Shown piece by piece: positions 15,293-40,903 of a stretch of 64,000 nt of DNA. Position numbers and translations under genes: made by a program. This DNA is from Ignavibacteriota bacterium (GTDB taxonomy: Bacteria; Bacteroidota; Ignavibacteria; Ignavibacteriales; Melioribacteraceae), in assembly GCA_002698995.1 (NCBI GenBank), contig PAAX01000005.1, positions 1 through 64,000 on the forward strand. Reading direction: 5' to 3'. Positions within the stretch are counted from its first letter, which is position 1; each line of letters opens with the position of its first letter. Under the pieces are notes generated by a model. It was given only the letters and a program-made list of their open reading frames with translations. It was not told where the DNA came from and made no database searches.

Positions 15293-16531
15293 ATGAAAAA
15301 CGAATTGATGAAAACAGTAAATACTTATGTTAATCATTTGTTCAGCAGCAGTAATACTTCTACTTTAATTTACCATGATTTTACACATACTAAAAGTGTT
15401 GTTGATGTCTGCGAAAAAATAGGAAAATCAGTTCAACTAAATAATGACGAAATGGAAATACTTTTACTGGCAGCTTATTTCCATGATGCCGGATATATTG
15501 ATTCAAGAGAAAATCATGAAGAAAGATCAGCTGAAATTGCAAAGAGCTTTTTAGCTGAAAATCATTTTGAAAGAGAAAAAATAGAAAAAGTTGAAAAAGC
15601 AATTCTAGCAACAAAAATTCCTCAATCACCACAAAATTTAATTGAAGAAGTATTATGTGATGCTGACCTGCATCATCTTGGTTCTAAAGATTTTTTTGAA
15701 AGAAATGAAATTCTTCGGATTGAATTTGAAAGAGTTTCCGGAAAACAATTTACAGATATTGAATGGCTTAATTCTACAATTGAGTTTATGTCGTCACACA
15801 AATATTTTACCCAATATGCACATGATAAATATGATGAGTTAAAAAATAGTCATTTGGCAAAACTTCAAAAAAGATTAAGAAAGAAAATTGAGAAGAAAAA
15901 AGATGTTCATCTTAAAGATGAAAAAATTGCTCTGGAAAAAGAAAAAATCAAAAAGAAAAAATCTGATGAAAAGCTTGCTGAAAGAGGAATTGAAACAATG
16001 TTCAGAAATGTTATGCGGACTCATGTTAGTTTCAGTTCAATGGCTGATAATAAAGCTAATATTATGATTAGTGTTAATACATTGCTTTTAACTGCAATTA
16101 TTGCTGTACTTGCAAGAAAACTTGATTCTAATCCGCATTTGATAATTCCAACTGCTATACTAACCATTTTTAGTCTTGTTACATTAATATTTGCTGTTAT
16201 TGTAACGCGTCCTAAAATAACTGACGGCAGATTTACGAGAGATGATATTGAACAGAAACGTGCAAATCTTTTATTCTTTGGTAATTTCTTTAATGTAAAT
16301 CTTGAAGATTTCACATGGGGAATGGAAGAAATGATGAAAGACCGCGATTATCTTTATGGTTCTATGATAAAAGATTTTTATTACTTAGGTCAGGTTTTAG
16401 GAAAGAAATATAAATATTTACGAATCTGTTATACAATTTTTATGTATGGAATAATTATTTCGGTAATTGCATTTGCAATAGCAATCTTCTTTTATCCCGG
16501 AACAACCGAACTTGGATCACTAATAGAATAA
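15293..16531 (+). CDS. HD-domain phosphohydrolase fused to Pycsar effector-type (PycTM/DUF5706) membrane domain
   Basis: The 412-aa protein has an HD domain at about 20-165 with metal-ligand candidates H28, H64-D65, H75 and D123/D125. A highly charged lysine- and glutamate-rich helix follows (about 185-235). Then comes a module starting MFRNVMRTHVSFSSMADNKA with two adjacent membrane helices (about 258-305) and a third near 380-402. That module matches the Pycsar effector transmembrane family, whose known members act in cyclic-pyrimidine anti-phage defence. No cyclase gene is nearby. It sits 6 nt before sixA and 8 nt before the ppk1 cluster is completed, suggesting an operon with polyphosphate kinase. 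HD substrate unknown; a nucleotide or polyphosphate is plausible. Confidence 0.85.
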   Translation: MKNELMKTVNTYVNHLFSSSNTSTLIYHDFTHTKSVVDVCEKIGKSVQLNNDEMEILLLAAYFHDAGYIDSRENHEERSAEIAKSFLAENHFEREKIEKVEKAILATKIPQSPQNLIEEVLCDADLHHLGSKDFFERNEILRIEFERVSGKQFTDIEWLNSTIEFMSSHKYFTQYAHDKYDELKNSHLAKLQKRLRKKIEKKKDVHLKDEKIALEKEKIKKKKSDEKLAERGIETMFRNVMRTHVSFSSMADNKANIMISVNTLLLTAIIAVLARKLDSNPHLIIPTAILTIFSLVTLIFAVIVTRPKITDGRFTRDDIEQKRANLLFFGNFFNVNLEDFTWGMEEMMKDRDYLYGSMIKDFYYLGQVLGKKYKYLRICYTIFMYGIIISVIAFAIAIFFYPGTTELGSLIE

Positions 16532-16537
16532 AGTTTT

Positions 16538-17038
16538 ATGAAAAAATTATATTTAATAAGACATGCAAAATCAAGCTGGGATAATCCCAAGCTTATCGAC
16601 TTTGAAAGACCTTTAAATGAAAGAGGTTACCGCGATGCTCCTTTAATGGGAAAATTTCTTAAGGAAGAAAAAATAATACCGGATTTAATTATTTCTAGTC
16701 CCGCTTTGCGAGCCTATTTTACAGCAAGAACTATAGCTTCAAGTATTGGTTACTCGCTTAACAAAATAAGAACCAGCGAATTGTTATATGACTCGGATGC
16801 TGAAGATATTTTTGAAGTTGTAAATTCCGTTAAAGAAAAGTATAACAGTTTAATGCTGTTTGGACATAATCCGGCATTAACTCAATTTTCTAATTATGTA
16901 AGTGATAAAAAAATTGATAATATTCCAACTACCGGTTTTGTTGAAATAGAAATGAATGTAACAACTTGGAAAGAAGTAGTAGTTGACTGCGGTAATATTA
17001 AAAGATTTCTTTCCCCAAAGATTTTAATGAATAAGTAA
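16538..17038 (+). CDS. SixA-family histidine phosphatase
   Basis: The 166-aa protein is a small histidine phosphatase. It has the catalytic LIRHAKSSW motif at 6-14, the SSPALRA segment near residue 53 and a second catalytic histidine in LFGHNPAL near 108. Relatives of SixA remove phosphate from phosphohistidine proteins; others act on small phosphoesters. It is only 6 nt after the HD gene and 2 nt before ppk1, so it is almost certainly co-transcribed with them. A partner protein cannot be named. Confidence 0.92.
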   Translation: MKKLYLIRHAKSSWDNPKLIDFERPLNERGYRDAPLMGKFLKEEKIIPDLIISSPALRAYFTARTIASSIGYSLNKIRTSELLYDSDAEDIFEVVNSVKEKYNSLMLFGHNPALTQFSNYVSDKKIDNIPTTGFVEIEMNVTTWKEVVVDCGNIKRFLSPKILMNK

Positions 17039-17040: not shown

Positions 17041-19089
17041 ATGAAAAAGAATGAATTATACTTTAACAGAGAATTAAGCTGGCTCTCTTTTAATTACCGG
17101 GTGCTGCAGGAAGCAAAGGATAAATCCAATCCTTTATTTGAGCGATTAAAATTTCTCGCTATATATTCTTCCAACCTTGATGAATTCTTTAGAGTTAGAG
17201 TAGCATCATTAAGAACTTTATTGGATAATAAAAAGAAAACTCTGCAAGAATTAAATTTTGATCCTAAGATACTGCTAAAGGATATTCATAAAATTGTATA
17301 TAAGCAGCAGGAAGAATTCGGTAAGATTTATCATACTGAAATTCTACCGGAATTAAAAAATAACAAAATTGTTATACTCAATGAAAAGACTGTTTCGGCT
17401 GATCAGATAAGGTTTACATCAGAATACTACAGCAGTAATATTTCATATTTAATTCAACCAATTTTGCTTATAAAGAAAAAGATTTTCCCTTTTTTAAAAA
17501 ATCAGTCTTTGTATCTTGCAGTAAGATTAAAATCAAAGAAAATTAAAGATGCGCGCAAAAAAGAAAACTATAAATATTCTTTAATTGAAATCCCTTCTCA
17601 GATTATTTCAAGATTTATAAAGCTTCCAAGCAATAATGAGAACAATTATTATATTTTTCTAGATGATGTTATTAGACTTAATCTTTCAAAAGTTTTCCCG
17701 GGTTATGAAATTGATTCAAGCTATTCTTTTAAGCTGACAAGAGATGCCGAATTATTTATTGATGATGAATTTTCAGGTAATCTTTTAGAAAAGATCAAAA
17801 AGAATTTAAAGAAAAGAGATACAGGTGTTCCAAGTAGATTTTTATTTGATAAATCTATTCCTAAAGATTTTCTTAAATTTTTGAAGGAAGCACTTAATCT
17901 AAATAAAGATGATTTAGTAGCCGGAGGAAAGTATCATAACTTCAGCGACTTCTTCAAGTTTCCCAATCCGAATAATGACAACCTTGTTTATAAACCTTTA
18001 GAACAGATTACACATAAGCAAGCCGGAAATAGTCTATTCAAAGCTATATCAAGAAAGGATATTGGATTTTATTTCCCTTATCACAATTACAATCATGTAG
18101 TTAATTTTTTTAAGCAGGCCGCTGATGATCCCGATGTAACTGAGATTAAAATTACTCAGTACAGAGTTGCAAAAAATTCCAAAATAATTAACTCATTAAT
18201 TGATGCAAAAAATAATGGGAAAGATGTTAGCGTATTTGTTGAAGTGAAAGCCAGATTTGATGAAGAGCTGAACATTCAGTGGGCTGAGGAAATGGAAAAC
18301 TGCGGTATAAAAGTTCATTATAGTTTTCCCGGATTAAAAGTTCATTCTAAGATCGCACTTATTAAAAGAAAAGAAGAGAGCGGAATTAATTCCTATTGTT
18401 ATTTAGGAACGGGAAATTTCAATGAGAATACTGCAAAGATATATACTGATTTTGGTCTACTTACTAAAAATGAAAAGATAACAAAGGAAGTTGAAAAAGT
18501 ATTCGACTTCTTAATAAACAAAAATAAAAAGAGTTACTTTGAAAATATGCTTGTTGCTCAATTCAATATGCGTAAAAGATTTGATGAATTGATTGATAAT
18601 GAAATTTCAAATGCAAAGAAAGGAAAACCGGCTTTTATCAAGGCTAAGATGAATAGTCTAGAGGATAAAAAATTAATAAAAAAGTTATATGAAGCTAGTA
18701 AAGCAGGAGTTAAAATAGATTTATTAGTAAGGGGAATTTGCTGTTTAGTTCCCGGAGTAAAAGGTTTAAGTGATAACATAAAAGTAACCAGCATTGTTGG
18801 AAGATTTTTAGAACACAGCAGAGTTTATATTTTCTGTAATAACAAAAAAGAATTAGTTTATGCAGGTTCTGCTGATTTGATGAAAAGGAATTTAAGCAGA
18901 AGAATTGAAACAATTTTCCCAATTCTTGATAAGGATATTCGTAAAAATGTTCAGCGAATGATTGATCTTCAGCTGAATGATAATGTAAAGGCTAGAATTA
19001 TTGACAGCAGACAAAAAAATAAATATGTAAAAAATGATAGTGCTGCAATAAACTCACAAACGGATTTCTACAATTTACTAAGCAGCTAA
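17041..19089 (+). CDS. ppk1: polyphosphate kinase 1
   Basis: This 682-aa enzyme makes inorganic polyphosphate from ATP. It opens with the PPK N-terminal signature (NRELSWLSFNYRVLQEA) and IYSSNLDEFFRVRVA. The phosphohistidine is H435 in KVHSKIAL, and the second catalytic histidine is H592 in EHSRVYIF, the same numbers as in E. coli Ppk. GTGNFNENTAKIYTDFGLL and AGSADLMKRNL are also present. Length is normal. It ends the HD-sixA-ppk1 run and its last 4 bases overlap the convergent outer-membrane gene. Confidence 0.97.
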   Translation: MKKNELYFNRELSWLSFNYRVLQEAKDKSNPLFERLKFLAIYSSNLDEFFRVRVASLRTLLDNKKKTLQELNFDPKILLKDIHKIVYKQQEEFGKIYHTEILPELKNNKIVILNEKTVSADQIRFTSEYYSSNISYLIQPILLIKKKIFPFLKNQSLYLAVRLKSKKIKDARKKENYKYSLIEIPSQIISRFIKLPSNNENNYYIFLDDVIRLNLSKVFPGYEIDSSYSFKLTRDAELFIDDEFSGNLLEKIKKNLKKRDTGVPSRFLFDKSIPKDFLKFLKEALNLNKDDLVAGGKYHNFSDFFKFPNPNNDNLVYKPLEQITHKQAGNSLFKAISRKDIGFYFPYHNYNHVVNFFKQAADDPDVTEIKITQYRVAKNSKIINSLIDAKNNGKDVSVFVEVKARFDEELNIQWAEEMENCGIKVHYSFPGLKVHSKIALIKRKEESGINSYCYLGTGNFNENTAKIYTDFGLLTKNEKITKEVEKVFDFLINKNKKSYFENMLVAQFNMRKRFDELIDNEISNAKKGKPAFIKAKMNSLEDKKLIKKLYEASKAGVKIDLLVRGICCLVPGVKGLSDNIKVTSIVGRFLEHSRVYIFCNNKKELVYAGSADLMKRNLSRRIETIFPILDKDIRKNVQRMIDLQLNDNVKARIIDSRQKNKYVKNDSAAINSQTDFYNLLSS

Positions 19090-21650
19090 AATCCCATTTT
19101 AGTTCTCAAGTAAAATTGTGTGCTTTCCTCTGAAAAAATTGTAGTGAATGAAAAGCCGGCAGTATCTTCAAATGAAGTTGCAAATATTCCAAAACCATAA
19201 GCTGGATGCCATTTTTGCGACATATCTCCTTCAATAAAAACTCTTCCGGTTTCTGCTGAAAATGAAATTCCAAAGTTGAATGGAATTATCAAATCAAAGT
19301 TGAAAAGATAATTTCTTAATTCAGATTGGAAAAAGATTAATGAATTTCCTGCAAATCTTTCTCTATCATAACCTCTAAGAGAATTCTTGCCTCCAAGCAT
19401 TGGAATTAAATAGAACGGTATTTTATGTCCCAAAATATGTTCACCGCTTGTCCTTAAAGCAAAAACAGTTTTATTAAAATGCTGAATCGATTTATAATAT
19501 CTGAAATCAAAAAGGAATTTTGCAAATGTTGATTCATTCTCAATTATTGTTGGAAATGTATTAATTCTTAAATTTATATTCATTCCATCACTTGGAAAGT
19601 AAATATTATCAACTGAATTATGCTTGAATGAAAAATCAAGTGAAAGAAGTTTAATTCCGTTAAGACCATAATTAAAATACTTATACGTTTGTAATAGATT
19701 CAGATTTATTTCCTGAGCTTCATAGTACCAATATGTTAAACCTGCTTCAAAATTACTCATTGATTTTCTGTTAAAAAGAATGGATGATGAGATTTTCACA
19801 ATTTCATTTCGTGCTCTGTAATACTCTTTTTCGAATAAATCCTTACTGTATTTGGTATCATTTCCAAAACCGAAAAAGTTGCCGTATTCAATTTCAGTTT
19901 TTGATGCAGAAATTTTTAACGAATGCTTATCAAATAAGTTATTAAAAGTACCGTTGTAATTGATTGAATAACTATTCAATAATGTTGAATAATAGAAATC
20001 AGCTTGATGAAAAGTACTGTAGGGATATTTATTAAATGAATATGTCCAGTAATCAATAAATCCGCCAAACAAAAAACCGTCATCAGAACTAATTGTTAAG
20101 GAAGGGAATATTTGATACTCACTCCCCTGTTGATTGTATTGAGGTTCAAATCTAATTTCCGGAATCTCACTTATTCTTGGGTATGATTCATCAATTTGAA
20201 TAAATTCATTATTATCAAAAATAGTTTTCTCTTTATCATCATAAACGAGTAATTCTTCTGTGCTGTTATTTATTATTACATCTTTACCTTTATCGCCAAT
20301 TATTCTGACTGTAGGAATGTTTTCACCAATACCATTGACTACTACTTTATCATCATCTTCTAACAAAAATAACCGTACTTCATCAGTAATTTTATTATCG
20401 ATTACTTTTGTGAAAAGAGACTGCTCTTTTTTGCTGCCGGTTTCTTTATCAAGTTTGTAGATTTTTATTTCTGTAATCCATTCATAAAAATTAACCTCTA
20501 TAAAATCTTTATCTATTGTTCCATAAATATGAGCAACTTCATTAGTCAATTCATAAAAATCGTTTGAGATATCTTTAAGCTTATTTCTCCTTGATTTTAA
20601 TTTCGTTATGATTTCATCACCGGCAATTTCATAATATTCATTTGGTAAGGCTGCAACAGATTTTTCAATAACCACATCTGAGATTCTATTATAAACAAAG
20701 TTAGTAACTGAATCCCATTCGGATTTATTTAATTCAATAAGAAATCTTCTATCAAGATATCTACCGCTCCAAGCTTGATATTTTACATTAGAGTATCCTT
20801 CACCAAAATGATTTAATTGCGGAACAATAACTGAAGTGAGATAAGGAAAGAGTCCGGTATATTTAGCAAAAGCTTGATCTCTATCGCGCGGAAAAGGAGA
20901 CCAGAATTTCAAAGTATCTTTTTGGAATCTAGCCCAGCGCCATTGATCAGTATGTCTATCCCAATCATTAATTAGAAAGTCGACTAATCTTGCTTTTAAA
21001 TAATCAGCAGAATTAATTCTGTTACTTCTTTTGTCCTCAATAGTCTCAAGTAGTTTATAAGTGCCTTTAATTTTATCAGAACCTTCTACTGTAGAAGTGC
21101 CGTCTTCAAATTCATCCGGATGAATTTCAATAAATCCTAGTACATTTTTAAATTCATCTCTGTACTCACCAAGCTTTTCATCATCCGGCATATAGACTAA
21201 AATTGGTTTTGCTTGAATTATATTAACTGCTTCAAGAATTTCTCCGGCAATTAAAGGAGCCATAGGATTTGATGAACTTATCTGATCTTTCAGAATATCG
21301 GCGGCAAATGTTTCTCTTAATTCTTCAGGTAAAACTTTTGAGGGATCTTTATTGATCGATCTAAATTTCCATTGAACTCCTTTAGGGGTAATTAATCGTA
21401 ATGATTTAGTTTGAAAACCTCCCCCTTTTTTTATTGGAGTAAGTCCACCATTAAATTTTTCTAAATCTAAAACTTCTACAGTAATAGGTGTAACCCATAA
21501 ATCTCGCCAATGGTGACCAAAGAAAACTTCAAAGAGCCGGCTTTGTTCATATTCTTCTCCTGGAATTACTTCAAGATATTTTTTTTCATAAACATTCTGT
21601 GCAGAAATATTTATAAAAAATAGAATGATTATTATGAATACAAATTTCAT
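19086..21650 (-). CDS. outer-membrane Omp85-like barrel protein with N-terminal kinase-like domain
   Basis: The 854-aa protein has a signal peptide (to about residue 18) and ends in phenylalanine after an Omp85/surface-antigen barrel (GGKNSLRGYDRERFAGNSL near 760). The N-terminal half is not POTRA-like. It has a glycine-rich GGGFQ at 76-80, a basic strand QWKFRS at 93-98, the segment NDWDRHTDQWRW at 228-239 and PRDRDQAF at 254-261. The last two resemble the catalytic DxxxxN/H loop and metal-binding DxD/DFG-like motif of HipA, CotH and PI-kinase-type folds. A middle region is beta-rich. The kinase idea is my inference; the barrel is well supported. It overlaps the upstream propeller gene by ATGA. 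Confidence 0.82.
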   Translation of the reverse strand: MKFVFIIIILFFINISAQNVYEKKYLEVIPGEEYEQSRLFEVFFGHHWRDLWVTPITVEVLDLEKFNGGLTPIKKGGGFQTKSLRLITPKGVQWKFRSINKDPSKVLPEELRETFAADILKDQISSSNPMAPLIAGEILEAVNIIQAKPILVYMPDDEKLGEYRDEFKNVLGFIEIHPDEFEDGTSTVEGSDKIKGTYKLLETIEDKRSNRINSADYLKARLVDFLINDWDRHTDQWRWARFQKDTLKFWSPFPRDRDQAFAKYTGLFPYLTSVIVPQLNHFGEGYSNVKYQAWSGRYLDRRFLIELNKSEWDSVTNFVYNRISDVVIEKSVAALPNEYYEIAGDEIITKLKSRRNKLKDISNDFYELTNEVAHIYGTIDKDFIEVNFYEWITEIKIYKLDKETGSKKEQSLFTKVIDNKITDEVRLFLLEDDDKVVVNGIGENIPTVRIIGDKGKDVIINNSTEELLVYDDKEKTIFDNNEFIQIDESYPRISEIPEIRFEPQYNQQGSEYQIFPSLTISSDDGFLFGGFIDYWTYSFNKYPYSTFHQADFYYSTLLNSYSINYNGTFNNLFDKHSLKISASKTEIEYGNFFGFGNDTKYSKDLFEKEYYRARNEIVKISSSILFNRKSMSNFEAGLTYWYYEAQEINLNLLQTYKYFNYGLNGIKLLSLDFSFKHNSVDNIYFPSDGMNINLRINTFPTIIENESTFAKFLFDFRYYKSIQHFNKTVFALRTSGEHILGHKIPFYLIPMLGGKNSLRGYDRERFAGNSLIFFQSELRNYLFNFDLIIPFNFGISFSAETGRVFIEGDMSQKWHPAYGFGIFATSFEDTAGFSFTTIFSEESTQFYLRTKMGF

Positions 21651-22492
21651 TTGCTATCTTTCTTTGATTTATAGAGTGTGATACTTCCTTTTTTCTTTTC
21701 GGCTTCATCACTTATTAGTAAGTCGCCATTCTTTAAAATAATCATTCCTTCAGGCTGAAAATGATATTTATCATTAAGCTCAATTTGATTAATAATTTCA
21801 CTTTTTCTGTTGAGTTCTATTAAAGCCAGACTCTTTCCCCCAAGTATAAAATAAGTATTTGATTTTTCATTTTTGATTATTGCTGAGGGCTTAAATTCTT
21901 CTTTTTTCTTTCCCTTTTTAATTTTTGACAAGTCAATTACTAAAAATGGTTCTTCATTTAGTTTGTTATTTTGAAGATCAAATCTGAATATATATTTTTT
22001 ACTGCTTTTTTTAACAGATTCTTTTGAAGCAATCAGTAGTGAATTAATCGATTTATCATAACATAAACCTTCGGTATCATACTTTGAATTCAATCCCGTT
22101 CTATATTTTTTATATATCACAAATTCATTATTATCTGCTTCTGGAAAAACCAGCAAATCCCCTTTACTATTGAGTAGATAAAATAAATCATTTACAAAAG
22201 TTATATCTTCAAAATCATCTTTAATTTTGCTGCTTCCTATTTGAAATTCTTTTATGATTTGACCGTTATTGGGATTTAACTCATAAACCATTCCATATTC
22301 ATCATTGTGAGCAAAAACTCTTCCATTTTTGCCAATGGTTAATCCTGATATTTCCTTTAATTCTTTAGGAAGATCAACCGAGTATTCTGCTTTGGAAAAA
22401 TCATAATTATCCAATCCTTGTCCAAAGTTATAATTACATAAGAACAGCAGATTTAACAAACTGATTTTTACAAACAATTTTAATTTCGCCAT
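21647..22492 (-). CDS. exported SdiA-regulated/phytase-like beta-propeller protein
   Basis: This 281-aa protein has an N-terminal signal segment ending near NFGQG, then repeated strands of a six-bladed propeller type: LKEISGLTIGKNGRVFAHNDE, DDFEDITFVNDLFYLL, YDTEGLCYD and FQPEGMIILKNGDLLISDE. The repeated E(G/D)(L/I) pattern with nearby acidic residues is that of the SdiA-regulated domain family, related to esterase-like phytases. It may bind calcium and a phosphoester, but activity is not proved. Its stop overlaps the start of the barrel-kinase gene by 4 bases, so both belong to one transcript. Confidence 0.82.
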   Translation of the reverse strand: MAKLKLFVKISLLNLLFLCNYNFGQGLDNYDFSKAEYSVDLPKELKEISGLTIGKNGRVFAHNDEYGMVYELNPNNGQIIKEFQIGSSKIKDDFEDITFVNDLFYLLNSKGDLLVFPEADNNEFVIYKKYRTGLNSKYDTEGLCYDKSINSLLIASKESVKKSSKKYIFRFDLQNNKLNEEPFLVIDLSKIKKGKKKEEFKPSAIIKNEKSNTYFILGGKSLALIELNRKSEIINQIELNDKYHFQPEGMIILKNGDLLISDEAEKKKGSITLYKSKKDSK

Positions 22493-22587: not shown

Positions 22588-23589
22588 ATGAGAATTACTT
22601 TTTTAATTATCATTTCTATTTTGTTCACATTTATCACCTCTGCTCAGGAAGTAGATTTTGAAGGTTATGGTGCAGCAGGATTTAAGTTTTATAATAGAGA
22701 AACAGTAATAGAATATAACCAAGAAACCTACTATGAAGGAAAACTTCAGGCAGAAATAAAATACAACAAAAAGATTAAAGCCCAGCTAGATTTTAGAGGC
22801 AACTCGACTGATAATGCAGTTAGTTTGCGAGAATTTTCTTTAAAACTGGAGTTTTTTAAAAAGCTTTATTTCAAAATAGGTAACCTGAAAATGCCTTTTG
22901 GATATGAGCAGTTAGTTAATCGTGAAGAACTCTACACTGTTGATAGAAGTTTTGTGAATAACAAAATATCAGAAGTAGGTTATGGAGAGAGAAGAATTAG
23001 CATAATGGCTTATCACGAGTTTGACAAAGATGAAAAAGATTTTCCATTCTCCTATTACTTTTATGTGTTCAAAGATAACTCACTTTATCATGGTGCCATG
23101 ACAAGGTTAAGTTATCACAACAATGATTTTATTTACTCTATAAATTATTTGTTTCAGCAGAAAGGAGGAAATAATCCAATAACAGCAAACGGATTTGGAG
23201 CTGATGTTGCAATTGAGAAAAAAGATTTCCATTCAAGTCTGCAGTTATTTTATGTTCAGGATCCGGAAGAAGGAATAAGAAGAGAACTGCAAAATCTCAA
23301 CAATAAAATTTTTTCAACCGGTGCTACATATACGGCGGCTTATAATTTTGAATTTAATGAGGAATTTTTAAAAGGAATTGAACCATTAATTTTAGTGGGA
23401 ATTTTTGTACCGGATTCTGATCTTTCCGAATACCATACAATACAATCTATTCTTGGAATTAATTTTTATATCGATAAAGATGTTAGATTCAGAATAAACG
23501 GTGATTTACGATTTATTAAATCAAAATTTAATTCAGCTTATTCAACTCAAAGTTCAAGAGGAATTTTTGAGATACAAGTGAGCTTTTAA
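22588..23589 (+). CDS. outer-membrane porin, phosphate-selective porin O/P-like
   Basis: The 333-aa protein has a signal peptide (about 1-19), alternating beta strands throughout and a C-terminal aromatic residue (EIQVSF). The stretch YFKIGNLKMPFGYEQ followed by a VDRSF segment near residues 95-125 is the characteristic piece of porin O/P family proteins, which pass phosphate or polyphosphate in the best-studied cases. It is divergent from the propeller gene (95 nt between starts) and coupled to cotH by a one-base TAATG overlap. The specificity is family knowledge, not seen here. Confidence 0.82.
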   Translation: MRITFLIIISILFTFITSAQEVDFEGYGAAGFKFYNRETVIEYNQETYYEGKLQAEIKYNKKIKAQLDFRGNSTDNAVSLREFSLKLEFFKKLYFKIGNLKMPFGYEQLVNREELYTVDRSFVNNKISEVGYGERRISIMAYHEFDKDEKDFPFSYYFYVFKDNSLYHGAMTRLSYHNNDFIYSINYLFQQKGGNNPITANGFGADVAIEKKDFHSSLQLFYVQDPEEGIRRELQNLNNKIFSTGATYTAAYNFEFNEEFLKGIEPLILVGIFVPDSDLSEYHTIQSILGINFYIDKDVRFRINGDLRFIKSKFNSAYSTQSSRGIFEIQVSF

Positions 23590-24707
23590 TGAAATATTTT
23601 TATACACTTTTAATAATTCTTCTAATTGTTAGCTGCAATAATGATGTGATATTAAATCCATCTGAAAACTTTTCAAACGTTGATATTATTGATATTTATG
23701 CCGATGAAGAGGATTTAATTACTTTGCTTTCAAATAGAATGTATAACACGGAAATTTCCGTTATACTATTTTATAAAGGTGAAAAATACAATGCTTTATT
23801 AAGATCTTCAGGTGCAGGTTCAAGATATCACTCCAAATGGTCATATCGCGTAATATTAAATGGTAATAAATTTATTGAAGGAATTAGGGAATTCAATCTT
23901 AGTGCGCAAATTTTTGACAAAACATTCTTAAGTACTACAATCGCTACTAAAATATATAGAGATAACGGATTTATCTTATTCGATTCCAAACATGTTTTTC
24001 TTAGAATTAATGACGAGGAAAAAGGACTTTATTTATTAATTGAAAAGATTGATGAAGATTTTTTTTCAAGAAGAAATAAAAAAGTAAACGAACTATTCAA
24101 ACTAAATTTTAATGCCGATTTTACATTCAATAATCCGAATTACCCGGAACTCACATTTGACAAGGAAATTCCAAATGATGAAAATTTCAATTCAATTTCC
24201 GACTTTATTTATGCAGTTGATACTTCACAAAATGATCGAATATATTCTTCTTTAGGTAAGTTTTTAGATATCGATAATTATTTAAATTATCATGCTATTA
24301 CAACGATTATAAATAATTCCGATGCATTTCGAAATAATTTTTATTTTCTTAAACAAGAACCTCAATCCCCTTTTATAATAATGCCGTGGGATTTTGATAA
24401 GGTATTTGAAGAAGCATCAGCAATAAATAGTATTTACGGTTATAATGCACTCATAGTAAAACTGCTTTCAGCAGAAAGTACCCGAAATAAATATCTGGAT
24501 ATTTTTGAGGAGAAACTTAATATTCTCGACATGAATTATCTTAATAATGTAATTGATTCTACATCAAATAAAATTAGAGAGGCTTATAATGCCGATCCCT
24601 ATCTGGGTAACGGAAGATATAATTTTGATGCGGAAATAAACAGTTTGAAAAATTTTATAAATAACAGAAAAGTTTTACTCAAGTCACTTTTAGATGAATA
24701 CAGATAA
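23589..24707 (+). CDS. CotH-family kinase lipoprotein
   Basis: This 372-aa protein has a lipoprotein signal (LLIVSCNN, Cys16). It shows the CotH pattern: GLYLLIEKIDEDFFSRR around 145-160, NNSDAFRNNFYFL with D245, and MPWDFD at 265-270. CotH is an atypical protein kinase fold that phosphorylates spore-coat proteins in Bacillus; in other bacteria it is often found with polyphosphate genes. Here it is predicted in the periplasm or outer membrane. It overlaps the porin gene by one base and the following PAP2 gene by 14 bases, so the three are one translationally coupled unit. Confidence 0.87.
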   Translation: MKYFYTLLIILLIVSCNNDVILNPSENFSNVDIIDIYADEEDLITLLSNRMYNTEISVILFYKGEKYNALLRSSGAGSRYHSKWSYRVILNGNKFIEGIREFNLSAQIFDKTFLSTTIATKIYRDNGFILFDSKHVFLRINDEEKGLYLLIEKIDEDFFSRRNKKVNELFKLNFNADFTFNNPNYPELTFDKEIPNDENFNSISDFIYAVDTSQNDRIYSSLGKFLDIDNYLNYHAITTIINNSDAFRNNFYFLKQEPQSPFIIMPWDFDKVFEEASAINSIYGYNALIVKLLSAESTRNKYLDIFEEKLNILDMNYLNNVIDSTSNKIREAYNADPYLGNGRYNFDAEINSLKNFINNRKVLLKSLLDEYR

Positions 24708-25617: not shown

Positions 25618-27714
25618 TTAACTTGTAATCAGCTTACCGTTTTTTCTTACCGAAAGGTGTGAATGATCTTTACTTAATTCAAGATCCAACTTAAACTGAT
25701 TAATTAATGCCTGGAGATTATGAGTAAGATTTGATAATCCTTCAGCAGATTGACTAATAAGATGAGTTCCCTGCACAGATTGCTGAGTTACATTGCTAAT
25801 TGTTTCAACATTTCTGCTAATTTGTTCACTTGTAGAAGCTTGTTCTTCACTGGCAACTGCAAGTTGTGCAATAATTTCAGAAACTTTTTCAGATTGATTT
25901 ATAATCTTACTTAATGCATCGCCGGCTTGAGATGCTAATTCTTTTCCTTTATCTACTTCATTCTTTCCTTCTAAAATTGAGCTTACAGCTTCTGAAGAAA
26001 CTCTCTGAATTTGTTTTATCATTTCCTCAATTTCTTTAGTAGCTTTGGTGGTTCTTTCAGCAAGTTTTCTAACTTCATCGGCAACAACGGCAAAACCTCT
26101 TCCTTGTTCACCTGCTCTGGCAGCTTCTATTGCGGCGTTAAGTGCAAGTAAGTTTGTCTGTTCTGCAATATCATTAATTACTTTTACTATTTCACCAATT
26201 TCATTACTGCTCTTTCCTAATTCTTCAATTGTAGCAGATGATTTATTAACTACTTCTGCAATACGTTTAATTCCGTCAATAGTTTTAACAACAACATCTC
26301 CGCCTTGTACAGCTTCAGTACCGGCAGCTTTAGCAGATTCAGCCGCAAGATTTGCATTTCGCGTATTTTCAAGAATTGTTTTAGTCATTTGTTCAACAGA
26401 TGCGGCAACTTCAGAAGTTTGATTATTTTGTTCATTAGCACCAACAGCCATTTCTTCGGTACTTGCAGAAATTTCAGATGCTGCATTTGATAATTCGTTA
26501 GAGCTTTTTGCAACTTCACCAATTAAATGATTCATTGAAGCAATTAATGTATTAACACTTTGTTTTATTACATCATAATCACCTTTGTAATCTCCGGTCA
26601 TTCTGGATCTAAAATCACCTTTTGATAAAGTTTCAAGAACAGAAGAGGCTTCTTTAATAGGTACAATAACAGAATCAAGAATTGAATTGATACCAAGAAT
26701 TAATTCTTTCCAGCCGCCTGAGAATTTATCAACATTTCCTCTTACTGATAAATCACCTCTTTGGTTTGCATCAATTAACTTTTTAGCTTCCTGCAGTAAT
26801 TCATTAATTGTTTCTACTTCGGAATTAAATGATTGAGCAAGTTTATCTTTAGAAGATGCTTCTTTAACTTTTTCTAAACTTCCGGAAGCAATTTTTTCTG
26901 CAGCAATAATTTTTTCGTTTTGAGTCTCTCTCAACTGCCTCATTTTTGTCGCTAATTCACCAATTTCATCTTGAGAATTTACACCTATTTCGGTGTCAAA
27001 ATTTCCCAAAGTAAATTCTGTAAGGGCGTCTTTCAATTTATTAATCGGTTTGGTGATTGCCGGAGCAACAATAAATGTTGATGCCAAGAAAATTAAAGTA
27101 CCGAATATCATTCCAATTATTATGTAAGTAATGGAAGCTTGAACCGTACTGTTGATTTCATCTTTAGTTGATTGAGCATTTTGATTTAATAACTCAATTA
27201 TTGCTTTGAATTCGCCATCAAGCATGTTGCCGACTTCTTCTCCGGATGTTACGGAAATAATAGCAGCCATTTCATAACTTTGAGTTGCAGCAGCACTAAG
27301 TATTGCATCTGCAACGTTATTGTTATAGTTTTTCCAAATTTCCGATATGGATTGAAGTTTTAATTTAACTTCTTCATTTAAGTTTTCTTGATTGGAAAGT
27401 TCTTCTAAGTCGGTTGTAAATGAAGATTTAAGTTCGCCAAATTTTTGATAGTTGCTTTCAAATTGATCTGCAAATACATCCATTGAAAACTTCAGCATCA
27501 TTCCTTGTATTTCATTGTAATTTCTCTGCAGATGTTCAATCTTAGCTCTAGGTTCAATATAATCTGTAAATAAAGATTCAGAAGTACTTTTAAAATTTGA
27601 CATTTGGACTGCATCACTTAAGGCAATTGCGGCAGAAACAAATGCAATTAATAAAAATCCCAACTGAAGTTTACGTACAAATTTTAATTTCTTTAATCCA
27701 CTTAAGAACTTCAT
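25618..27714 (-). CDS. methyl-accepting chemotaxis protein with four-helix-bundle sensor
   Basis: This 698-aa chemoreceptor has a membrane helix near 16-33, an all-helical periplasmic sensor (about 35-190) of the four-helix-bundle kind and a second membrane helix near 195-217. It then has a HAMP domain, a further HAMP-like linker (about 300-400) and the MCP signalling domain. The conserved hairpin tip [20 protein letters not shown] and [15 protein letters not shown] is intact. It would control a CheA kinase not present in this window. It starts 12 nt after the small TonB-domain gene and should be co-transcribed with it. Ligand unknown. Confidence 0.95.
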
Positions 27715-34605: not shown

Positions 34606-36645
34606 TTAATCTAGTATTTCTAATTTGTAATCTAAATCAGTATTTGGTTTAGTCGATTTATCATTATTACCTTTAAGATAATAATCAAACCATTCCATTG
34701 TTCTGAGAGCATAATCAAGTTTGGCAGTATTTTTACTATTGCCATGCCCTTGACCAGGATACCAGACTAATCTAACCGGTGCATTACCGAACATTTTAAC
34801 TGAGCGATAAAGTTCTAAACTTTGTGAGGGATGAACTCTCGGATCTTCAGTTCCATGTAAAATTAATAATGGTGTTTGATTTAAATATGCCCATTTAACA
34901 GGACTTCTATCATAAACTTTCTCCAAATTTTCATTAGTCCAAATTCCCCAATGTACATAATAATCTTCCCAAGGAATATCGGTTGTATTGCGTTTAGAAA
35001 TTTGATTGCCAATACCTACAAAACAAACGGAAGCAGCAAATCTTTCTGAATGTCTAGTTGCAGCCCAAGCCGAGAAATAACCACCATAAGAACCTCCGCC
35101 AATCCCAACTTTTTTATGATCTACCAATCCTTTAGAAATTAGGAAATCTATTCCATCAATAACATCTTCAAATTCTTTTCCGGCCAAATCTCCAAGACCC
35201 ATTAAAGCAAATTCGTAACCTCTTCCGGCACTAGCTCTGTAGTTTGGAATAAAGACGAAATAATCTTTTGCAGCTGCAGCTTGTCCCCATCTGCTGTATG
35301 AAGTCTGCCAGCCATCCATTTCAGCTGCTTCAGGTCCGCCATGTATATATGTAATAAGAGGATATGATTCCCCTTCTTCATAATTCAACGGATAAATTAA
35401 AACAGCTTCTATATCTAGTCCATCTTTAGCATAGTATACTATTTTTTCCTGCTTAGCTAATTTGTAATCTTTCAGCCAACTGTTATGATTTGTTAATTTA
35501 TTTAATTCTTTTGAATTATGTTCAAAGACGAATAATTCGTTAGGGTGCATTTTCGTATTCCCGGCAAATACAAATTTTTCACCGTTAAAACTGAATGATG
35601 ACAAAATTAACTTATCTTCTTCTAAAAGAATTTCTCTTTCATCTTGATCAACCTTCTGTTTACTTATAACTGTATAAACACCTTCCTCGGCAAGAAATAA
35701 AAATGTTGAATTATCAAGCCAATCAATATCTATTACTGAACCTCTAAATCCTTTAGAATAATTTTTCAATCCCTTGAAATTGTTTTCTGATTTAGTATCA
35801 GCAATAAAAATACTTCCCGCTACAGAATCATTGGTATCGGCTGCAGAGATAAATGCAAGTTTAGAATCATCAGGACTAAAACTCATTTCACCTAATTTAC
35901 CTGGATTATTTACAAGCTTTTTAATTTCTCCAGATTCAATGTCAATCAGATGAATTCTTTTGAACATGTACGAATCATCAACTAAGTTATTTGGAGCTAT
36001 TGCAGCAGCTATTTGTTTTCCACTATTACTCCAGGTAAAATCAAAAACACTTACATCTTTTGTCAATTGCTTTACTTCATTGTTTTCAAGAGTCATTAAA
36101 TAAAGATTAACATCAGCTAAATTTTCTTCAAATATTTCTTGATCAAATCCTTTTTCAATTATTTCTTTATTTGATGGAAGAACTTCTTCTGAAGTGTATA
36201 ATAAATGCTTGCCATCAGGACTTAGTTCATATTGACTTACGGAATTTTCAGAATTTGTAACTAATTTGATTTCTTTGTTTTCTAAATCAATCCTATAGAC
36301 TTGTGTCTTAGGTGATTGCTCAAGTTTTGCTCTGAAGAAAATCGATTTTGAATCAACGTTCCATGAAGGAGAATAGATATTTAATTTTCCTGTTACTAAT
36401 TCTTCAGATTCTTTTTTAGAAAAATCGTAAACATAAAGATTGGAATAATCTGATCCAGCCTTTTCTGTAAAAGGTCTTGGTACACTTAAAGTATAAAGAG
36501 CATAATTACCATCGGGAGAAACGATTGCATTTCCCACATTCTGAATTCTAAAAATATCATGTGTTGTAAAAACTTTTTCTTGTGCAGTTATTTGAAATAG
36601 AAAAAGGGCTAAAAAAAAGATTGATATATTTTTTATTCTATGCAT
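34606..36645 (-). CDS. S9-family prolyl oligopeptidase-like exported peptidase
   Basis: This 679-aa protein has a signal peptide (to about ITAQ), an N-terminal beta-propeller with repeated strands, and an alpha/beta-hydrolase domain. The nucleophile S519 is in GGGSYGGYFSAW, the acid lies in HGTEDPRVHPSQS and the histidine in PGQGHGNS. These fit the S9C (acylaminoacyl/dipeptidyl peptidase) type. It cleaves peptides to dipeptides or acyl amino acids in the periplasm. It lies 54 nt after the S46 gene on the same strand and looks like part of the same peptide-degrading set. Confidence 0.93.
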   Translation of the reverse strand: MHRIKNISIFFLALFLFQITAQEKVFTTHDIFRIQNVGNAIVSPDGNYALYTLSVPRPFTEKAGSDYSNLYVYDFSKKESEELVTGKLNIYSPSWNVDSKSIFFRAKLEQSPKTQVYRIDLENKEIKLVTNSENSVSQYELSPDGKHLLYTSEEVLPSNKEIIEKGFDQEIFEENLADVNLYLMTLENNEVKQLTKDVSVFDFTWSNSGKQIAAAIAPNNLVDDSYMFKRIHLIDIESGEIKKLVNNPGKLGEMSFSPDDSKLAFISAADTNDSVAGSIFIADTKSENNFKGLKNYSKGFRGSVIDIDWLDNSTFLFLAEEGVYTVISKQKVDQDEREILLEEDKLILSSFSFNGEKFVFAGNTKMHPNELFVFEHNSKELNKLTNHNSWLKDYKLAKQEKIVYYAKDGLDIEAVLIYPLNYEEGESYPLITYIHGGPEAAEMDGWQTSYSRWGQAAAAKDYFVFIPNYRASAGRGYEFALMGLGDLAGKEFEDVIDGIDFLISKGLVDHKKVGIGGGSYGGYFSAWAATRHSERFAASVCFVGIGNQISKRNTTDIPWEDYYVHWGIWTNENLEKVYDRSPVKWAYLNQTPLLILHGTEDPRVHPSQSLELYRSVKMFGNAPVRLVWYPGQGHGNSKNTAKLDYALRTMEWFDYYLKGNNDKSTKPNTDLDYKLEILD

Positions 36646-36699
36646 TTGCTTCCTTTCATTTATGATTAACTATAACTCAAAACTGATAAAAATAGTTTA

Positions 36700-38748
36700 C
36701 TATTTTTCTAATAATTCGCTTAATAATCTTTCGGCTTTATAAACTTTCTTTAATGCTTCTATAATTCCCCTTGAGTCAACGGCTACAGCTCTGTTGGTTT
36801 CCGGCAAAAATATAAAATTACCATAAAGACTTTCCATGTTGCCGTCAAAAACCAACCCTATTACTTCGGCATTCTTATTAATAATTGAACTTCCGGAATT
36901 TCCACCAACAATATCATTTGTTGAAGCAAAATTTAGCGGAGTAGATAAGTTAATATCGTCATAAGCTTCAGCCCAGTTAGGTGTTAATCCCCAAGGATAA
37001 CTCTCTTTGCCAAATCCAAAGTATCTGTCATATAATCCATAAAAGGTTGTAAATGGTTGAGCTAATGTTCCGTTGTATTCATAACGCTTAACTTTTCCGT
37101 CTGAAATTCTCAAAGTTGAAGTTGCATCCGGTGACATCTTGTCTCCAAATACTGCAAATACTGATTCTCCGTAAAGCTTTGTGAGATCATCAATAGTTTT
37201 GTTTACTTCATTTAATTTTGGATTTAATCTTGCAATTATTTCTTTAGAATTGTTAATCAGTTTTACTAAAGGATCATTATTCAATTTTTCCAAATCACTT
37301 TCAATAAGAACAGTTTTCAATTCTTCTCTATTTTTGAATAACGATCGGTTCAAAAATTCAGCAGCATTCATTTCATAATTTGTAATCAATTCAATTATAA
37401 CAGGATGATCGTTGCTCAATGATCTTTCTAGGAGATTAAAAAATGCTTGAGTAATTTTTATTGATTTTTCTTCGTCAATATTTTTGTCATATTCCTCTTC
37501 AATAAACTTATTTATTTTTTCTTCTGATTTAGCTGAATCATTAATAAGCTCAATAGCTTTTTGTGCAATTGCAGAATAATCAGAATTAAATCTAGAACCT
37601 AATCTGAAAGCATAAAATTCAGCAGAAAATTCAGAAAGCTCATTAAAAGCCAAATCCAAAGCTGGGAAAATATGAGAGTACTTTTCTTCTAATTTATCAT
37701 CGGAACTAATTTTCTTTCTCAAGTCATCTTCAAAAGCTTTCTTTCTATTTCTTACATAAGAATCATGAAGAGCTTTGTATTCACCCAAATAGGCTTTCTT
37801 ACCGTTACCAATTCCCATAACTTGATTTAACAGCTCGGATTCTCTTTCAGGATACTTTTGGAATAATTCAAAATAAACATTGTAAAATTCATCAAACATT
37901 GAGAGATAAACTGGATAACGTATATCCCTCTGATATTCAAATTCTCTGAATGATATTAATCTTTCAGTACTACCGGGACGGCCAACTGTAAAAATCAATT
38001 CATCTTCTTCTGTTCCTTTTTCACTCCATTCGAAATAGTTTTCAACATTAACCGGTTTCCCATTTTCATCATAGGCTCTGAAGAATGCGAAATCCAATTC
38101 ATATCTTGGATAAGTAAAGTTATCCCAATCCCATCCTGTTGAAGCTATCTGAAACTCAGGTGCCATTACAAGTCTAATATCATTATACCTTTTATAGCCA
38201 TACATTGAAAATTTATTACCATTATATAGATTTACAACTCTGCAAGTTAAACCGGTTTCTCTTACGAATTGGGCTTCTAAAGAATCAATCATTTCTTTTT
38301 TGTTATCTGAGTTAATTATTTTATCTGTCACATCCCATATTTCAACTAATTGATCAACAAATAAATTAGGAATTCTTCGTTCCTCTTCAAGTTCGGCAGC
38401 GTAAAATCCGTTTTTAAGAATATCTTCACCCTCCTTTTGAACTGATACAAATCCCCCTCTAGCACAGTGATGATTACTCATTATTAATCCATTTGCAGAA
38501 ACAAAAGCTCCCGAACAGCCCCATCCAAACTGCAAAGCAGATTTCATAACATCATCAATCCATTCTTCATTAGGAGAAAAACCATATTCAGTTTCCCAAT
38601 AATCAATTGGTAAATCGTCAAAAGTCCACATTTTACCAAAATCATTTAAAGAATATTCAGCTTTATCGGATTGAAAAATCTTCTGCATTTCTGTTTGCGC
38701 CTGCAGAGATAAAAAAGAAAAGAGTGTAATTAATAAAATGTTTTTCAT
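36700..38748 (-). CDS. S46-family dipeptidyl-peptidase (DPP7-type) copy 1
   Basis: The 682-aa exported protein has a signal peptide (about 1-18), the catalytic histidine pair in MSNHHCARGG (H93-H94) and an acid in NFTYPRYELDFAFFRAYD. Its nucleophile serine is in GGNSGSSI near residue 621. The residue deciding P1 specificity reads Gly in VFDGN, as in DPP7, so it should release dipeptides with a hydrophobic residue in P1. Length is normal for S46. It is the last of three tandem S46 paralogues on this strand. Confidence 0.94.
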   Translation of the reverse strand: MKNILLITLFSFLSLQAQTEMQKIFQSDKAEYSLNDFGKMWTFDDLPIDYWETEYGFSPNEEWIDDVMKSALQFGWGCSGAFVSANGLIMSNHHCARGGFVSVQKEGEDILKNGFYAAELEEERRIPNLFVDQLVEIWDVTDKIINSDNKKEMIDSLEAQFVRETGLTCRVVNLYNGNKFSMYGYKRYNDIRLVMAPEFQIASTGWDWDNFTYPRYELDFAFFRAYDENGKPVNVENYFEWSEKGTEEDELIFTVGRPGSTERLISFREFEYQRDIRYPVYLSMFDEFYNVYFELFQKYPERESELLNQVMGIGNGKKAYLGEYKALHDSYVRNRKKAFEDDLRKKISSDDKLEEKYSHIFPALDLAFNELSEFSAEFYAFRLGSRFNSDYSAIAQKAIELINDSAKSEEKINKFIEEEYDKNIDEEKSIKITQAFFNLLERSLSNDHPVIIELITNYEMNAAEFLNRSLFKNREELKTVLIESDLEKLNNDPLVKLINNSKEIIARLNPKLNEVNKTIDDLTKLYGESVFAVFGDKMSPDATSTLRISDGKVKRYEYNGTLAQPFTTFYGLYDRYFGFGKESYPWGLTPNWAEAYDDINLSTPLNFASTNDIVGGNSGSSIINKNAEVIGLVFDGNMESLYGNFIFLPETNRAVAVDSRGIIEALKKVYKAERLLSELLEK

Positions 38749-38779
38749 TTTTGAATCCGGTTTAATTTTAATAAAAAGA

Positions 38780-38802
38780 AAGGGGTGCTTGCCGCACCCC
38801 TT
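38780..38802 (-). terminator. hairpin terminator after S46 copy 2
   Basis: A 9-bp perfect stem AAGGGGTGC / GCACCCCTT with a short loop follows the stop of the S46 gene ending at 38813 (minus strand). A T-rich stretch comes next, so S46 copy 1 may have its own promoter or be reached by read-through. Confidence 0.85.
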
Positions 38803-38812
38803 GAAAGAAAAG

Positions 38813-40903
38813 TTATTTTATTTTACCGTTTCTAAGTTCATCGGCTAGTTTTTGTGCTTTATAAATTTTTTCAATTGCTTCAACCATACCTTGTGAAGTA
38901 ACAGAAACCATTCTATTATTATGCGGAAGATAAATAAAATTACCAATAATACTATCCATGTTACCGTCAAATGCTAAACCAACAACTTCTGCATTTTTAT
39001 TGATAACAGCGCTGCCGGAATTTCCGCCGATAATATCATTAGTCGAAACAAAATTAAACTTAACAGATTTATCAAGAGCACTTTCATTTTCAATCCATCT
39101 TTCATGAAGTCCCCAAGGATAAGCTCCATCTTTAGAATAATAACGGTCATATAGTCCATAGAATGTTGTAAATTCAGGAGCGACAGTTCCGTTATATTCA
39201 AATCCTTTTAATACGCCGTCACTTATTCTTAATGATCTGTTAGCATCCGGAGGAATATTTGTTCCGTAAATTTTAAATAAAACTTGTCCAAGCATATTCG
39301 AATATACTTCTTCAGTATCTCTAATTTCTTTAACCAAATTATTGGCTTTGTCTAATCTTTCTTTTTTAAGTTGAATAAACTGAATGAATGGATCTTGAAC
39401 AGCTAAAATTTCTTCTGGAGATTTTTCTAATAATTCTGCGGCTTTATCTTTACTAGTTAAGTGTGATTCTGCCAGAATTTTATTCACATCATCATCACCG
39501 AATAATTTATTTAGAAGTTCATCATCCCCAATATTTAAGCGCATATACTCTAAATTATATGCAAGTTTCATATCTTCTAAAACTTTATCAAATTCTTCTG
39601 GAAAAATTGACTGTTTCAATGAATCAATATTTACATTTTTATATGATTCACTTCTTTCTTCCTCAGGTTTACTTAGCTCTTGCGCCATTTCAACTATTTT
39701 ATCAGCCATAATAAAATATTGAGCATTCCATCTTCTTGAAAGGGTTAAAGCAGATTGAACAGGATAAACATTTGCAAGTTCTGTCTGTAGATTTTCTATT
39801 TTATTCCAAATATCACCATATTCTTCTTTTAGTTCTGCATCAGCAAAAACTTTATCCTTTAATTCTCTTTCGAATGCATTTTTTCTTGCAAGCATATAAT
39901 CATCTTGCAAACCCTTATAAACATTAGAAATTACTTTTTGACCATTACCGATAGCAACTCTTAAGTCTTCATAATAATCAGCATTCTCGGGATTAACTTT
40001 TTTTAGAGTTTCTAATCTTTTATAATATTCATCATAAAGAAAAGCTAAATTTCTATAAGCATAATCTCTATTAAATTTCAATTGAGAAAAGGTTTTTAAT
40101 CTGCTGGTTCTTCCCGGAAATCCGACAGCAAAAATTGGTTCACCTAATTGTGCCCCATTTTCACTGAACTTGAAATAATTTTCTGTTTTAACAGGCTGGT
40201 CATTTTCATAAACTCTAAAAAATGCACAGTCAAGGTTATATCTAGGATAAGTAAAGTTATCAAAATCGCCGCCGAAGTAACCTATTTTTTCTTCAGGCAT
40301 GAATACTAATCTTACATCATCATATTTTTTCATTCCATGCAATGAATATTTTCCACCGTTGTAATATTCAACTACTCTGCAATTCAATCCGGTTTCGTCT
40401 GCATATTTTTTTTCTAATTCAGAAATTGCACTTTTCTTTTTTTCTAATTTTTCTGATTCAGTATTTCCCTCATCAATTTTAGATTGAATTTCTTCGGTAA
40501 CATCTTTTATAAGAACTAATTGTTCTGCGTAAAGTCCCGGAACTCTTCTTTCTTCTTCAAGAGTCTCAGCATAAAATCCACTAAGTTTAAGTTCTTCACC
40601 TTCTTTTTGAACTTTATCTCTATGCCATTCTGAGCAATGGTGGTTTGTCATAATCAATCCATCTTCAGAAACAAAAGATGATGTACATCCCGGAATCCTC
40701 AGCGCAGATAATCTAACATCCTTAAACCATTCATCATCAGGAGTGAACTCATAAGTTTCATCAAAATATAAAGATGGAGGATAGTCAAAAGTCCACATTT
40801 TTCCGTTATCAAACTTTTGAGCCTTAACGGAATCATAGTCAACATTTAATTGAGCTTGTAAAGAGATTGCACACAGTAAAACCAGAAGAGCAAATTTTTT
40901 CAT
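38813..40903 (-). CDS. S46-family dipeptidyl-peptidase (DPP7-type) copy 2
   Basis: The 696-aa protein is an S46 serine peptidase with a signal peptide (MKKFALLVLLCAISLQAQ). The second ATG (40903) is preferred, because AAAGGGA then sits at the right distance; the first (40909) abuts it. It has NHHCSEWH with the catalytic histidines, NFTYPRYNLDCAFF, and GGNSGSAV with the serine; the specificity position is Gly (AFDGN). It is the middle paralogue. All three differ enough not to be a recent duplication. Confidence 0.94.
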   Translation of the reverse strand: MKKFALLVLLCAISLQAQLNVDYDSVKAQKFDNGKMWTFDYPPSLYFDETYEFTPDDEWFKDVRLSALRIPGCTSSFVSEDGLIMTNHHCSEWHRDKVQKEGEELKLSGFYAETLEEERRVPGLYAEQLVLIKDVTEEIQSKIDEGNTESEKLEKKKSAISELEKKYADETGLNCRVVEYYNGGKYSLHGMKKYDDVRLVFMPEEKIGYFGGDFDNFTYPRYNLDCAFFRVYENDQPVKTENYFKFSENGAQLGEPIFAVGFPGRTSRLKTFSQLKFNRDYAYRNLAFLYDEYYKRLETLKKVNPENADYYEDLRVAIGNGQKVISNVYKGLQDDYMLARKNAFERELKDKVFADAELKEEYGDIWNKIENLQTELANVYPVQSALTLSRRWNAQYFIMADKIVEMAQELSKPEEERSESYKNVNIDSLKQSIFPEEFDKVLEDMKLAYNLEYMRLNIGDDELLNKLFGDDDVNKILAESHLTSKDKAAELLEKSPEEILAVQDPFIQFIQLKKERLDKANNLVKEIRDTEEVYSNMLGQVLFKIYGTNIPPDANRSLRISDGVLKGFEYNGTVAPEFTTFYGLYDRYYSKDGAYPWGLHERWIENESALDKSVKFNFVSTNDIIGGNSGSAVINKNAEVVGLAFDGNMDSIIGNFIYLPHNNRMVSVTSQGMVEAIEKIYKAQKLADELRNGKIK

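Follow-up and report, generated by a model that had tools for sequence, protein, structure and literature searches.

The gene and its protein

The window analysed here is a stretch of 64,000 nucleotides from an Ignavibacteriota bacterium (contig PAAX01000005.1), and the gene of interest is an open reading frame (ORF) on its minus strand, 19086-21650, that starts with ATG and encodes a protein of 854 amino acids (aa). The protein is made up of an N-terminal head with a predicted kinase-like fold, a beta-rich linker and an Omp85-type outer-membrane barrel (Table 1). Both the barrel superfamily and the fold are known; what is new is their combination, and the kinase-like family has no name.

The barrel belongs to the Omp85 type. 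PF01103 (Omp85) is matched at residues 574-768 (E 2.2e-12, 47.6 bits against a cut-off of 24), a BamA barrel in the PDB is matched by phmmer (2.1e-7), and the sequence reads LRGY at residues 758-761, which agrees with the RGF/Y motif that is a feature of Omp85 barrels. In NCBIfam, Omp85_fam alone is matched, under its cut-off. PF01103 is the only Pfam match in the whole protein at E ≤ 1. At this threshold there is no match to POTRA, the domain expected in BamA and TamA, no family is matched in residues ~20-370, and PF00149, present in the relatives L024, L061 and L169 (L and G numbers are our labels for loci and genomes), is not found. The same holds for PF08757, PF07804 and PF00454, the last of which was matched in 0 of 58 genomes, the window's own included.

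Relatives were collected by scanning one genome from each species, which gave 99 pattern stretches, 90 of them relatives; the best 80 of the 90 lie in 79 loci. An 80-row alignment holds the window protein and 79 stretches, with L019 (frame-split), L022 and L078 (both partial) left out and paralogues from L003, L008 and L014 included. Conservation was counted in a second alignment of matches at E ≤ 1e-10 spanning most of the domain model, 122 of which were dereplicated to 104 and joined by the window protein (105 members). These are full-domain members only, with L160-L162 left out.

Table 1. Features of the window named in the text. Loci are the 79 of the scan; numbering in the isolated-domain model is protein numbering minus 19.
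Feature	Position	Strand	Basis
HD-domain protein with PycTM membrane domain	15293..16531	+	PF01966 and PF18967
SixA-like histidine phosphatase	16538..17038	+	PF00300; 13/79 loci
Polyphosphate kinase PPK1, convergent with barrel gene	17041..19089	+	four PPK Pfam domains; 12/79 loci
Kinase-fold (predicted) head, beta linker and Omp85 barrel protein, 854 aa	19086..21650	-	ORF, Pfam, models
Export signal, residues 1-18	21597..21650	-	hydrophobic N-terminus ending SAQ, by eye
Predicted kinase-like domain, residues 20-370	20541..21593	-	AlphaFold2, Foldseek, VIA-align
Glycine-rich loop GGGFQ, residues 76-80, between strands 71-76 and 81-87	21411..21425	-	conservation, DSSP strands
Strand 3, residues 93-101, with R97 and K101	21348..21374	-	conservation, model strand 74-82
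Helix C-like, residues 115-124, with D122	21279..21308	-	conservation, model helix 96-105
Strand toward presumed hinge, residues 170-176, with E175	21123..21143	-	conservation, model strand 151-157
Catalytic-loop-like segment NDWDRHTDQWRW, residues 228-239, with D231 and Q236	20934..20969	-	conservation, CtkA alignment
Metal-loop-like segment PRDRDQAF, residues 254-261, with D256 and D258	20868..20891	-	conservation; after model strand pair 218-225/228-235
Beta-rich linker domain, residues 371-530	20061..20540	-	strands in residue 20-540 model; matched without kinase head in L162
Omp85-type barrel, residues 531-854	19089..20060	-	PF01103, phmmer, LRGY
SdiA-regulated-type propeller	21647..22492	-	PF06977, E 9.8e-9; 10/79 loci
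CotH-family kinase, lipobox-like N-terminus (by eye)	23589..24707	+	PF08757, E 7.6e-48; 3/79 loci

The predicted kinase-like fold

AlphaFold2 gave a predicted local distance difference test score (pLDDT) of 89.7 and a predicted template modelling score (pTM) of 0.90 for residues 20-540 (80-row alignment), and 94.3 and 0.92 for residues 20-370 alone (105-row alignment). In Foldseek the isolated domain matched CtkA (5.5e-6), HipT (4.6e-5), CotH (5.2e-5), PI4KII-alpha (1.2e-4) and Fam20C (2.1e-4). In VIA-align its best match was CotH (5jda, Z 15.1, 249 aligned residues, 4.0 Å, 12% identity), with PI4KII at Z 14.9, CtkA at 13.7, an mTORC1 entry at 12.3, HipA at 11.4 and Fam20C at 10.7. The residue 20-540 model matches identical kinase groups with both tools, the Z of Fam20C being 10.7-11.0 over the two models, and for either model each of the 50 entries listed by VIA-align bears the title of a kinase-fold protein. 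According to the tool, the best Z is typically 7-8 when a model has no clear match. A kinase-like bilobal fold is therefore a well supported prediction for residues ~20-370. The sequence identities to the structural matches are 6-15%, and a common fold does not by itself show function.

The elements follow one another along the model in the order that is usual for kinases: the glycines GGG at the turn of strands 71-76 and 81-87, strand 93-101, helix 115-124, strand 170-176, helix 214-226, a loop at 228-239 with D231, the strand pair 237-244/247-254 and then PRDRDQAF with D256 and D258. Judging from this order and from one weak alignment to CtkA (E 0.008), D231, D256 and D258 would cluster around a pocket.

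A first-pass annotation of this DNA had proposed a kinase-like domain in place of POTRA domains, pointing to a glycine-rich segment (residues 76-80), a basic strand (93-98), NDWDRHTDQWRW and PRDRDQAF. The motifs it names stand where it placed them (GGGFQ at 76-80, QWKFRS at 93-98, NDWDRHTDQWRW at 228-239, PRDRDQAF at 254-261), and the numbering of D231, D256 and D258 is correct when checked residue by residue. Its statement on POTRA agrees with the Pfam search, which gives Omp85 only, and with the kinase-like folding of the head region. Structure prediction had been set beforehand as the test that could overturn the proposal; it produced confident kinase-like models (pLDDT 89.7 and 94.3), and CotH, HipA and Fam20C, the proteins suggested for comparison, are all among the top Foldseek and VIA-align matches together with CtkA, PI4KII and HipT. 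The extent of the domain has to be revised, as in both models it ends at about residue 370 and not at 270. The match of standalone relatives ends at model positions 352-355.

It is very improbable that the resemblance is accidental and the fold unrelated. Such an accident would be in keeping with the lack of a significant profile-profile match and of any kinase family among the listed Pfam matches of 80 members, but it would have to yield two confident models that align with CotH, PI4KII and CtkA over 220-270 residues at Z 13-15, well above the reference of 7-8.

Conservation of active-site-type positions

The positions picked out by the model are strongly conserved. Among the 105 members the loop glycines G76, G77 and G78 are kept in 101, 101 and 100, R97 and K101 in 102 each, D122 in 104, E175 in 102, D231 in 99, D256 in 103 and D258 in 101; W230 is kept in all 105 and Q236 in 101. 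The loop glycines, R97, K101, D122, E175, D231, D256 and D258 are thus at 94-99%, where the median column is conserved to about 50%, and this is more than chance. The glycine loop, R97/K101 and D231/D256 are all kept in 99 members, all three sets are lost in four, and D231 only is lost in two (Fisher p 3e-6 for joint loss, which is not a true probability since the members are related). The earlier suggestion of a conserved but poorly described family is borne out by this motif conservation and by the listed Pfam matches of 80 members, which include no kinase family.

Some degenerate copies can be located. Tandem second head-barrel copies, L014:8596-10224 and L003:3483-5027, have lost the glycine loop and have a changed catalytic Asp, and an intact copy adjoins each. 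Two further degenerate heads, L166:5422-8022 and L167:4979-7585, come from two genomes of one genus (g24).

Sequence relationship to known kinases

When a profile of the domain only was run against 177,635 PDB sequences with hmmsearch, CtkA was the first of two matches (E 0.008, best stretch 0.015), which is suggestive of a kinase relationship. The alignment starts near the catalytic loop and places D231 on an Asp and Q236 on an Asn of CtkA; the CtkA Asp nearest D256 sits one column off, on R255. The residue 20-540 profile found chance-level matches alone in the PDB (best E 0.69). In hhalign, a 100-row kinase-domain alignment scored 0.8% against 21 CotH stretches and 0.4% against 7 HipA_C stretches, and five unrelated control alignments scored 0.1-1.6%. 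Sequence-level membership in CotH or HipA was given up as within the control range, and because hhalign does no better than the controls we claim no homology to either.

Neither a kinase family nor PF08757 is among the matches listed for the 80 members (25 of 45 weak Pfam families). DUF4135 in one of the 80 (0.069) was set aside as a chance-level match. LanM, whose dehydratase domains are kinase-like in fold, is matched in two of the 105 members in NCBIfam (best E 0.0096); it was discarded as chance-level too, the other listed names being unrelated and some of them having a better E. Beyond these two matches the NCBIfam list for the 105 members contains no kinase family.

Family distribution and architectures

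Judged by their record titles, the relatives come from Ignavibacteria, including Melioribacteraceae, and from other Bacteroidota, many of them Flavobacteriaceae. With the residue 20-540 profile, a member of the protein family is found in 18 of the 57 genomes from the window's own taxonomic family (its genome included) and in 113 of the 296 that were sampled over the phylum. Viral contigs gave six pattern stretches and no relatives. Five homologues are on plasmids; the annotation reads hypothetical protein for four of them, and for the fifth nothing is annotated under the match.

Most complete frames are of ~850-940 aa, like the window protein, or ~1,200-1,280 aa, and some are ended by contig edges. 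Four architectures occur. The first is the head, linker and barrel of the window protein. In the second, represented by 53 ORFs of more than 1,200 aa in the scan loci, a calcineurin-like phosphoesterase (PF00149) is added in front; it was identified by Pfam in L024, L061 and L169, the last from another genome, and in the remaining long ORFs by a profile built from 40 of the 53. Its motifs GDAG, GDN, GNHD, HHP and GH(E/D)H are kept in most of nine rows. The third consists of head and linker without a barrel (498-570 aa in L155-L159, and 534 aa in L076), and the fourth of the head alone after one hydrophobic segment (423-425 aa, L150-L154). By eye the N-termini of L155, L156, L158 and L159 are lipobox-like and that of L157 signal-like. 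In L150:6658-9165 a protein of DUF5686 / carboxypeptidase-regulatory type adjoins the kinase-only form.

The same modules are also encoded side by side. In L158 and L159 three consecutive genes on one strand, with gaps of fewer than 20 bases, encode a head-linker protein, a phosphoesterase and a barrel-only Omp85 protein (assigned by Pfam in L158, and in L159 by 80-90% identity to L158). These trios lie at L158:3341-7293 and L159:5551-9594, and their kinase-fold genes are lipoprotein-like. A separate phosphoesterase gene adjoins the head-barrel gene in L001 (convergent) and in L016 and L022 (just upstream). Since the two modules are adjacent in some genomes and fused in others, there is good evidence for joint action of phosphoesterase and head in those genomes.

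These architectures bear on whether the protein is an ordinary outer-membrane assembly factor whose head merely replaces POTRA as a periplasmic docking module. The PF01103 barrel and the LRGY motif would suit such a factor, which also matches the conservative assumption made for unknown Omp85 subfamilies in the relevant passage of Heinz and Lithgow (PMC4104836). However, the head exists without a barrel, since barrel-free kinase-domain proteins occur in 10 loci (L150-L159), and docking alone needs no conserved Asp and glycine-loop residues. We consider this explanation quite unlikely.

A proposed role at the outer membrane

We favour, with about as much belief as doubt, the view that the protein is an atypical kinase that is anchored in the outer membrane, faces the periplasm and often has a phosphatase as its partner. 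The barrel homology, the kinase-like fold, the conservation and the association of modules on which it builds are computed. The Omp85 barrel would be seated in the outer membrane with the kinase-like domain as its N-terminal arm, in place of POTRA domains. The head would lie on the periplasmic side, because the Omp85 N-terminus is usually periplasmic and the barrel-free forms have export-type N-termini. A nucleotide or other phosphate donor would be bound between the lobe with the GGG loop, R97, K101 and D122 and the lobe with D231 and D256-x-D258, and catalysis would pass the phosphate to an envelope substrate, which may be an outer-membrane protein or a lipid or glycan head group. In relatives with a calcineurin-type phosphoesterase fused in front or encoded next door, addition and removal of phosphate may be coupled at one place. 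A broader and more doubtful proposal is that the family carries out reversible phosphorylation in the periplasm or outer membrane of Bacteroidota with a donor other than cytoplasmic ATP, its kinase, phosphatase and barrel being fused, part-fused or encoded by consecutive genes.

Several observations weigh against a periplasm-facing kinase. The strongest objection concerns the donor, as the periplasm is not known to contain an ATP pool. Arg stands in 102 of 105 members at the place of the presumed ATP-binding Lys, with K101 four residues further. Six of the 105 members have degenerate active sites; four of these (in L003, L014, L155 and L156) are accompanied by an intact copy within one stretch, and the other two, L166 (G023) and L167 (G043), are in genomes where the profile search finds no second match. 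L162 has linker and barrel without the head, L161 is matched without most of the N-lobe, and L160 is too diverged to tell. The partner phosphoesterase was not found in the window's genome by a profile whose controls were its own members, so that a distant relative could escape it. The same profile finds nothing in G019, G022, G036 and G060, all of which carry head-barrel genes, and the pairing of phosphoesterase and head therefore seems not to be general. The control-level hhalign scores for CotH and HipA count on this side as well.

Part of this evidence would suit a pseudokinase head that binds a nucleotide, a phosphorylated sugar or a lipid and gates the barrel or recruits clients to it without phosphate transfer, an explanation that we hold to be doubtful. 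Here the strand-3 ATP-binding Lys is apparently replaced by Arg (R97), if the positions are equivalent; six degenerate members persist, and in two genomes such a member is the sole match; and a barrel remains in L161 and L162 although the head is reduced or missing. On the other hand, conservation of D231, D256, D258 and GGG at 94-99% and their joint loss would be expected more of an active site that works. Arg in place of this Lys is unusual for a kinase; the Legionella pan-kinome paper describes it for one other kinase-like family, Lani_1194 (PMC9758233).

The fold may also serve another chemistry, namely nucleotidyl transfer (AMPylation), or take its phosphate from polyphosphate or an isoprenoid diphosphate. 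SelO and SidJ are examples of kinase folds with a different chemistry, and a donor other than ATP would solve the problem of the missing periplasmic ATP. A PPK1 gene is a neighbour in 12 of the 79 loci, and PAP2 proteins occur in the vicinity. PPK1 is cytoplasmic, however, and none of its relatives was found in the available flanks of the 50 loci that have a long ORF and at least 12 kb of sequence. This alternative we regard as unlikely.

Comparison with known systems

Among the titles and abstract openings listed by searches of an open-access library, none describes a kinase-like domain on an Omp85 barrel. In the relevant passages of a bacterial survey the N-terminal arms of Omp85 proteins are POTRA, patatin, a WD40 propeller, PF00149 or none (PMC4104836). 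The 'Metallo' subfamily of Heinz and Lithgow 2014, there called a metalloprotease, combines PF00149 with the barrel (PMC4104836). Our PF00149-fused relatives share this named architecture and are presumably of the same family; the alignment of the window protein with these relatives spans its head, linker and barrel. The window protein differs in that it has no PF00149, and the survey's account of the subfamily names no domain, kinase-like or other, between PF00149 and the barrel (PMC4104836). The patatin-Omp85 protein PlpD likewise carries an enzyme domain on an Omp85-type barrel (PMC4104836). Its domain is lipolytic and delivered to the surface; the head of the window protein is unrelated to it.

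Among kinases, CotH (PF08757; 5jda, 5jd9) is the best structural match of the isolated domain, and its PWDFD is in register with PRDRD in the non-significant hhalign alignment (0.8%), whereas the window protein has no PF08757 match. The type II PI4Ks (PF00454; 8a5x, 9hhm, 4yc4), which are cytoplasmic eukaryotic lipid kinases, reach a Z of up to 15.3 with the longer model (262-267 residues aligned) and 14.9 with the isolated one (263-269), but at 10-12% identity and with no PF00454 match in the window protein. In the group of HipA, HipT and CtkA, the last two are top Foldseek matches, and CtkA is the only kinase found by a sequence profile in the PDB; the proteins of this group differ in having no barrel, and the window protein has no PF07804 match (HipA_C scores 0.4% in hhalign).

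If the proposed role is correct, a large unnamed family, present in 113 of the 296 genomes that were sampled from the phylum, may phosphorylate outside the inner membrane, and phosphate groups may be both added and removed there, where no ATP supply is known. The 'Metallo' Omp85 proteins may need rereading as phosphatase, kinase-like domain and barrel and not as metalloproteases.

Genomic neighbourhood

The most constant of the window genes tested is the HD-PycTM gene, a homologue of which is near in 61 of 79 loci and in 55 of the 66 with at least 12 kb of sequence, although all neighbourhood counts are inflated by shared descent. The window's genome has one such gene. In L162:4517-6298, the locus with no kinase head, an HD-PycTM relative lies within the same 11.5 kb. 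Pfam named the PycTM domain after the Pycsar (anti-phage) effectors; its recurrence beside the outer-membrane family (61 of 79 loci) suggests that HD-PycTM serves housekeeping and not defence.

The last four bases of the propeller gene are also the first four of the barrel gene, on the same strand. A propeller of this SdiA type or of a flavobacterial type is near in 54 of 79 loci, the flavobacterial one being weakly similar to that of the window (26% over 121 residues, E 7.6e-5).

Other neighbours are less frequent. PPK1 was rejected as a constant partner on its counts (12/79, and 0/50 among the long-ORF loci). CotH was dropped as a functional partner, since with relatives in 3 of 79 loci it is a local feature; D245 and MPWDFD (265-270), which the first-pass annotation had pointed out in it, are present by count on the translation. 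Relatives of the window's PAP2 genes are near in 6 and 3 loci and those of its porin in 3. In loci with long flanks the relatives of PPK1, SixA, PAP2, CotH and porin stand only beside the unfused type; a different PAP2 protein, in a neighbour cluster of 21 loci, is beside the fused L024. The phosphate-metabolism genes nearby (PPK1, SixA-like, HD and PAP2) fit a phosphotransfer role and prove none.

Further along the window, the ORF at 25618-27714 encodes, by eye, a methyl-accepting-chemotaxis-like protein. Three more minus-strand ORFs stand in a row at 34606-40909, and their lengths of 679-698 aa are like that of the ORF at 25618-27714.

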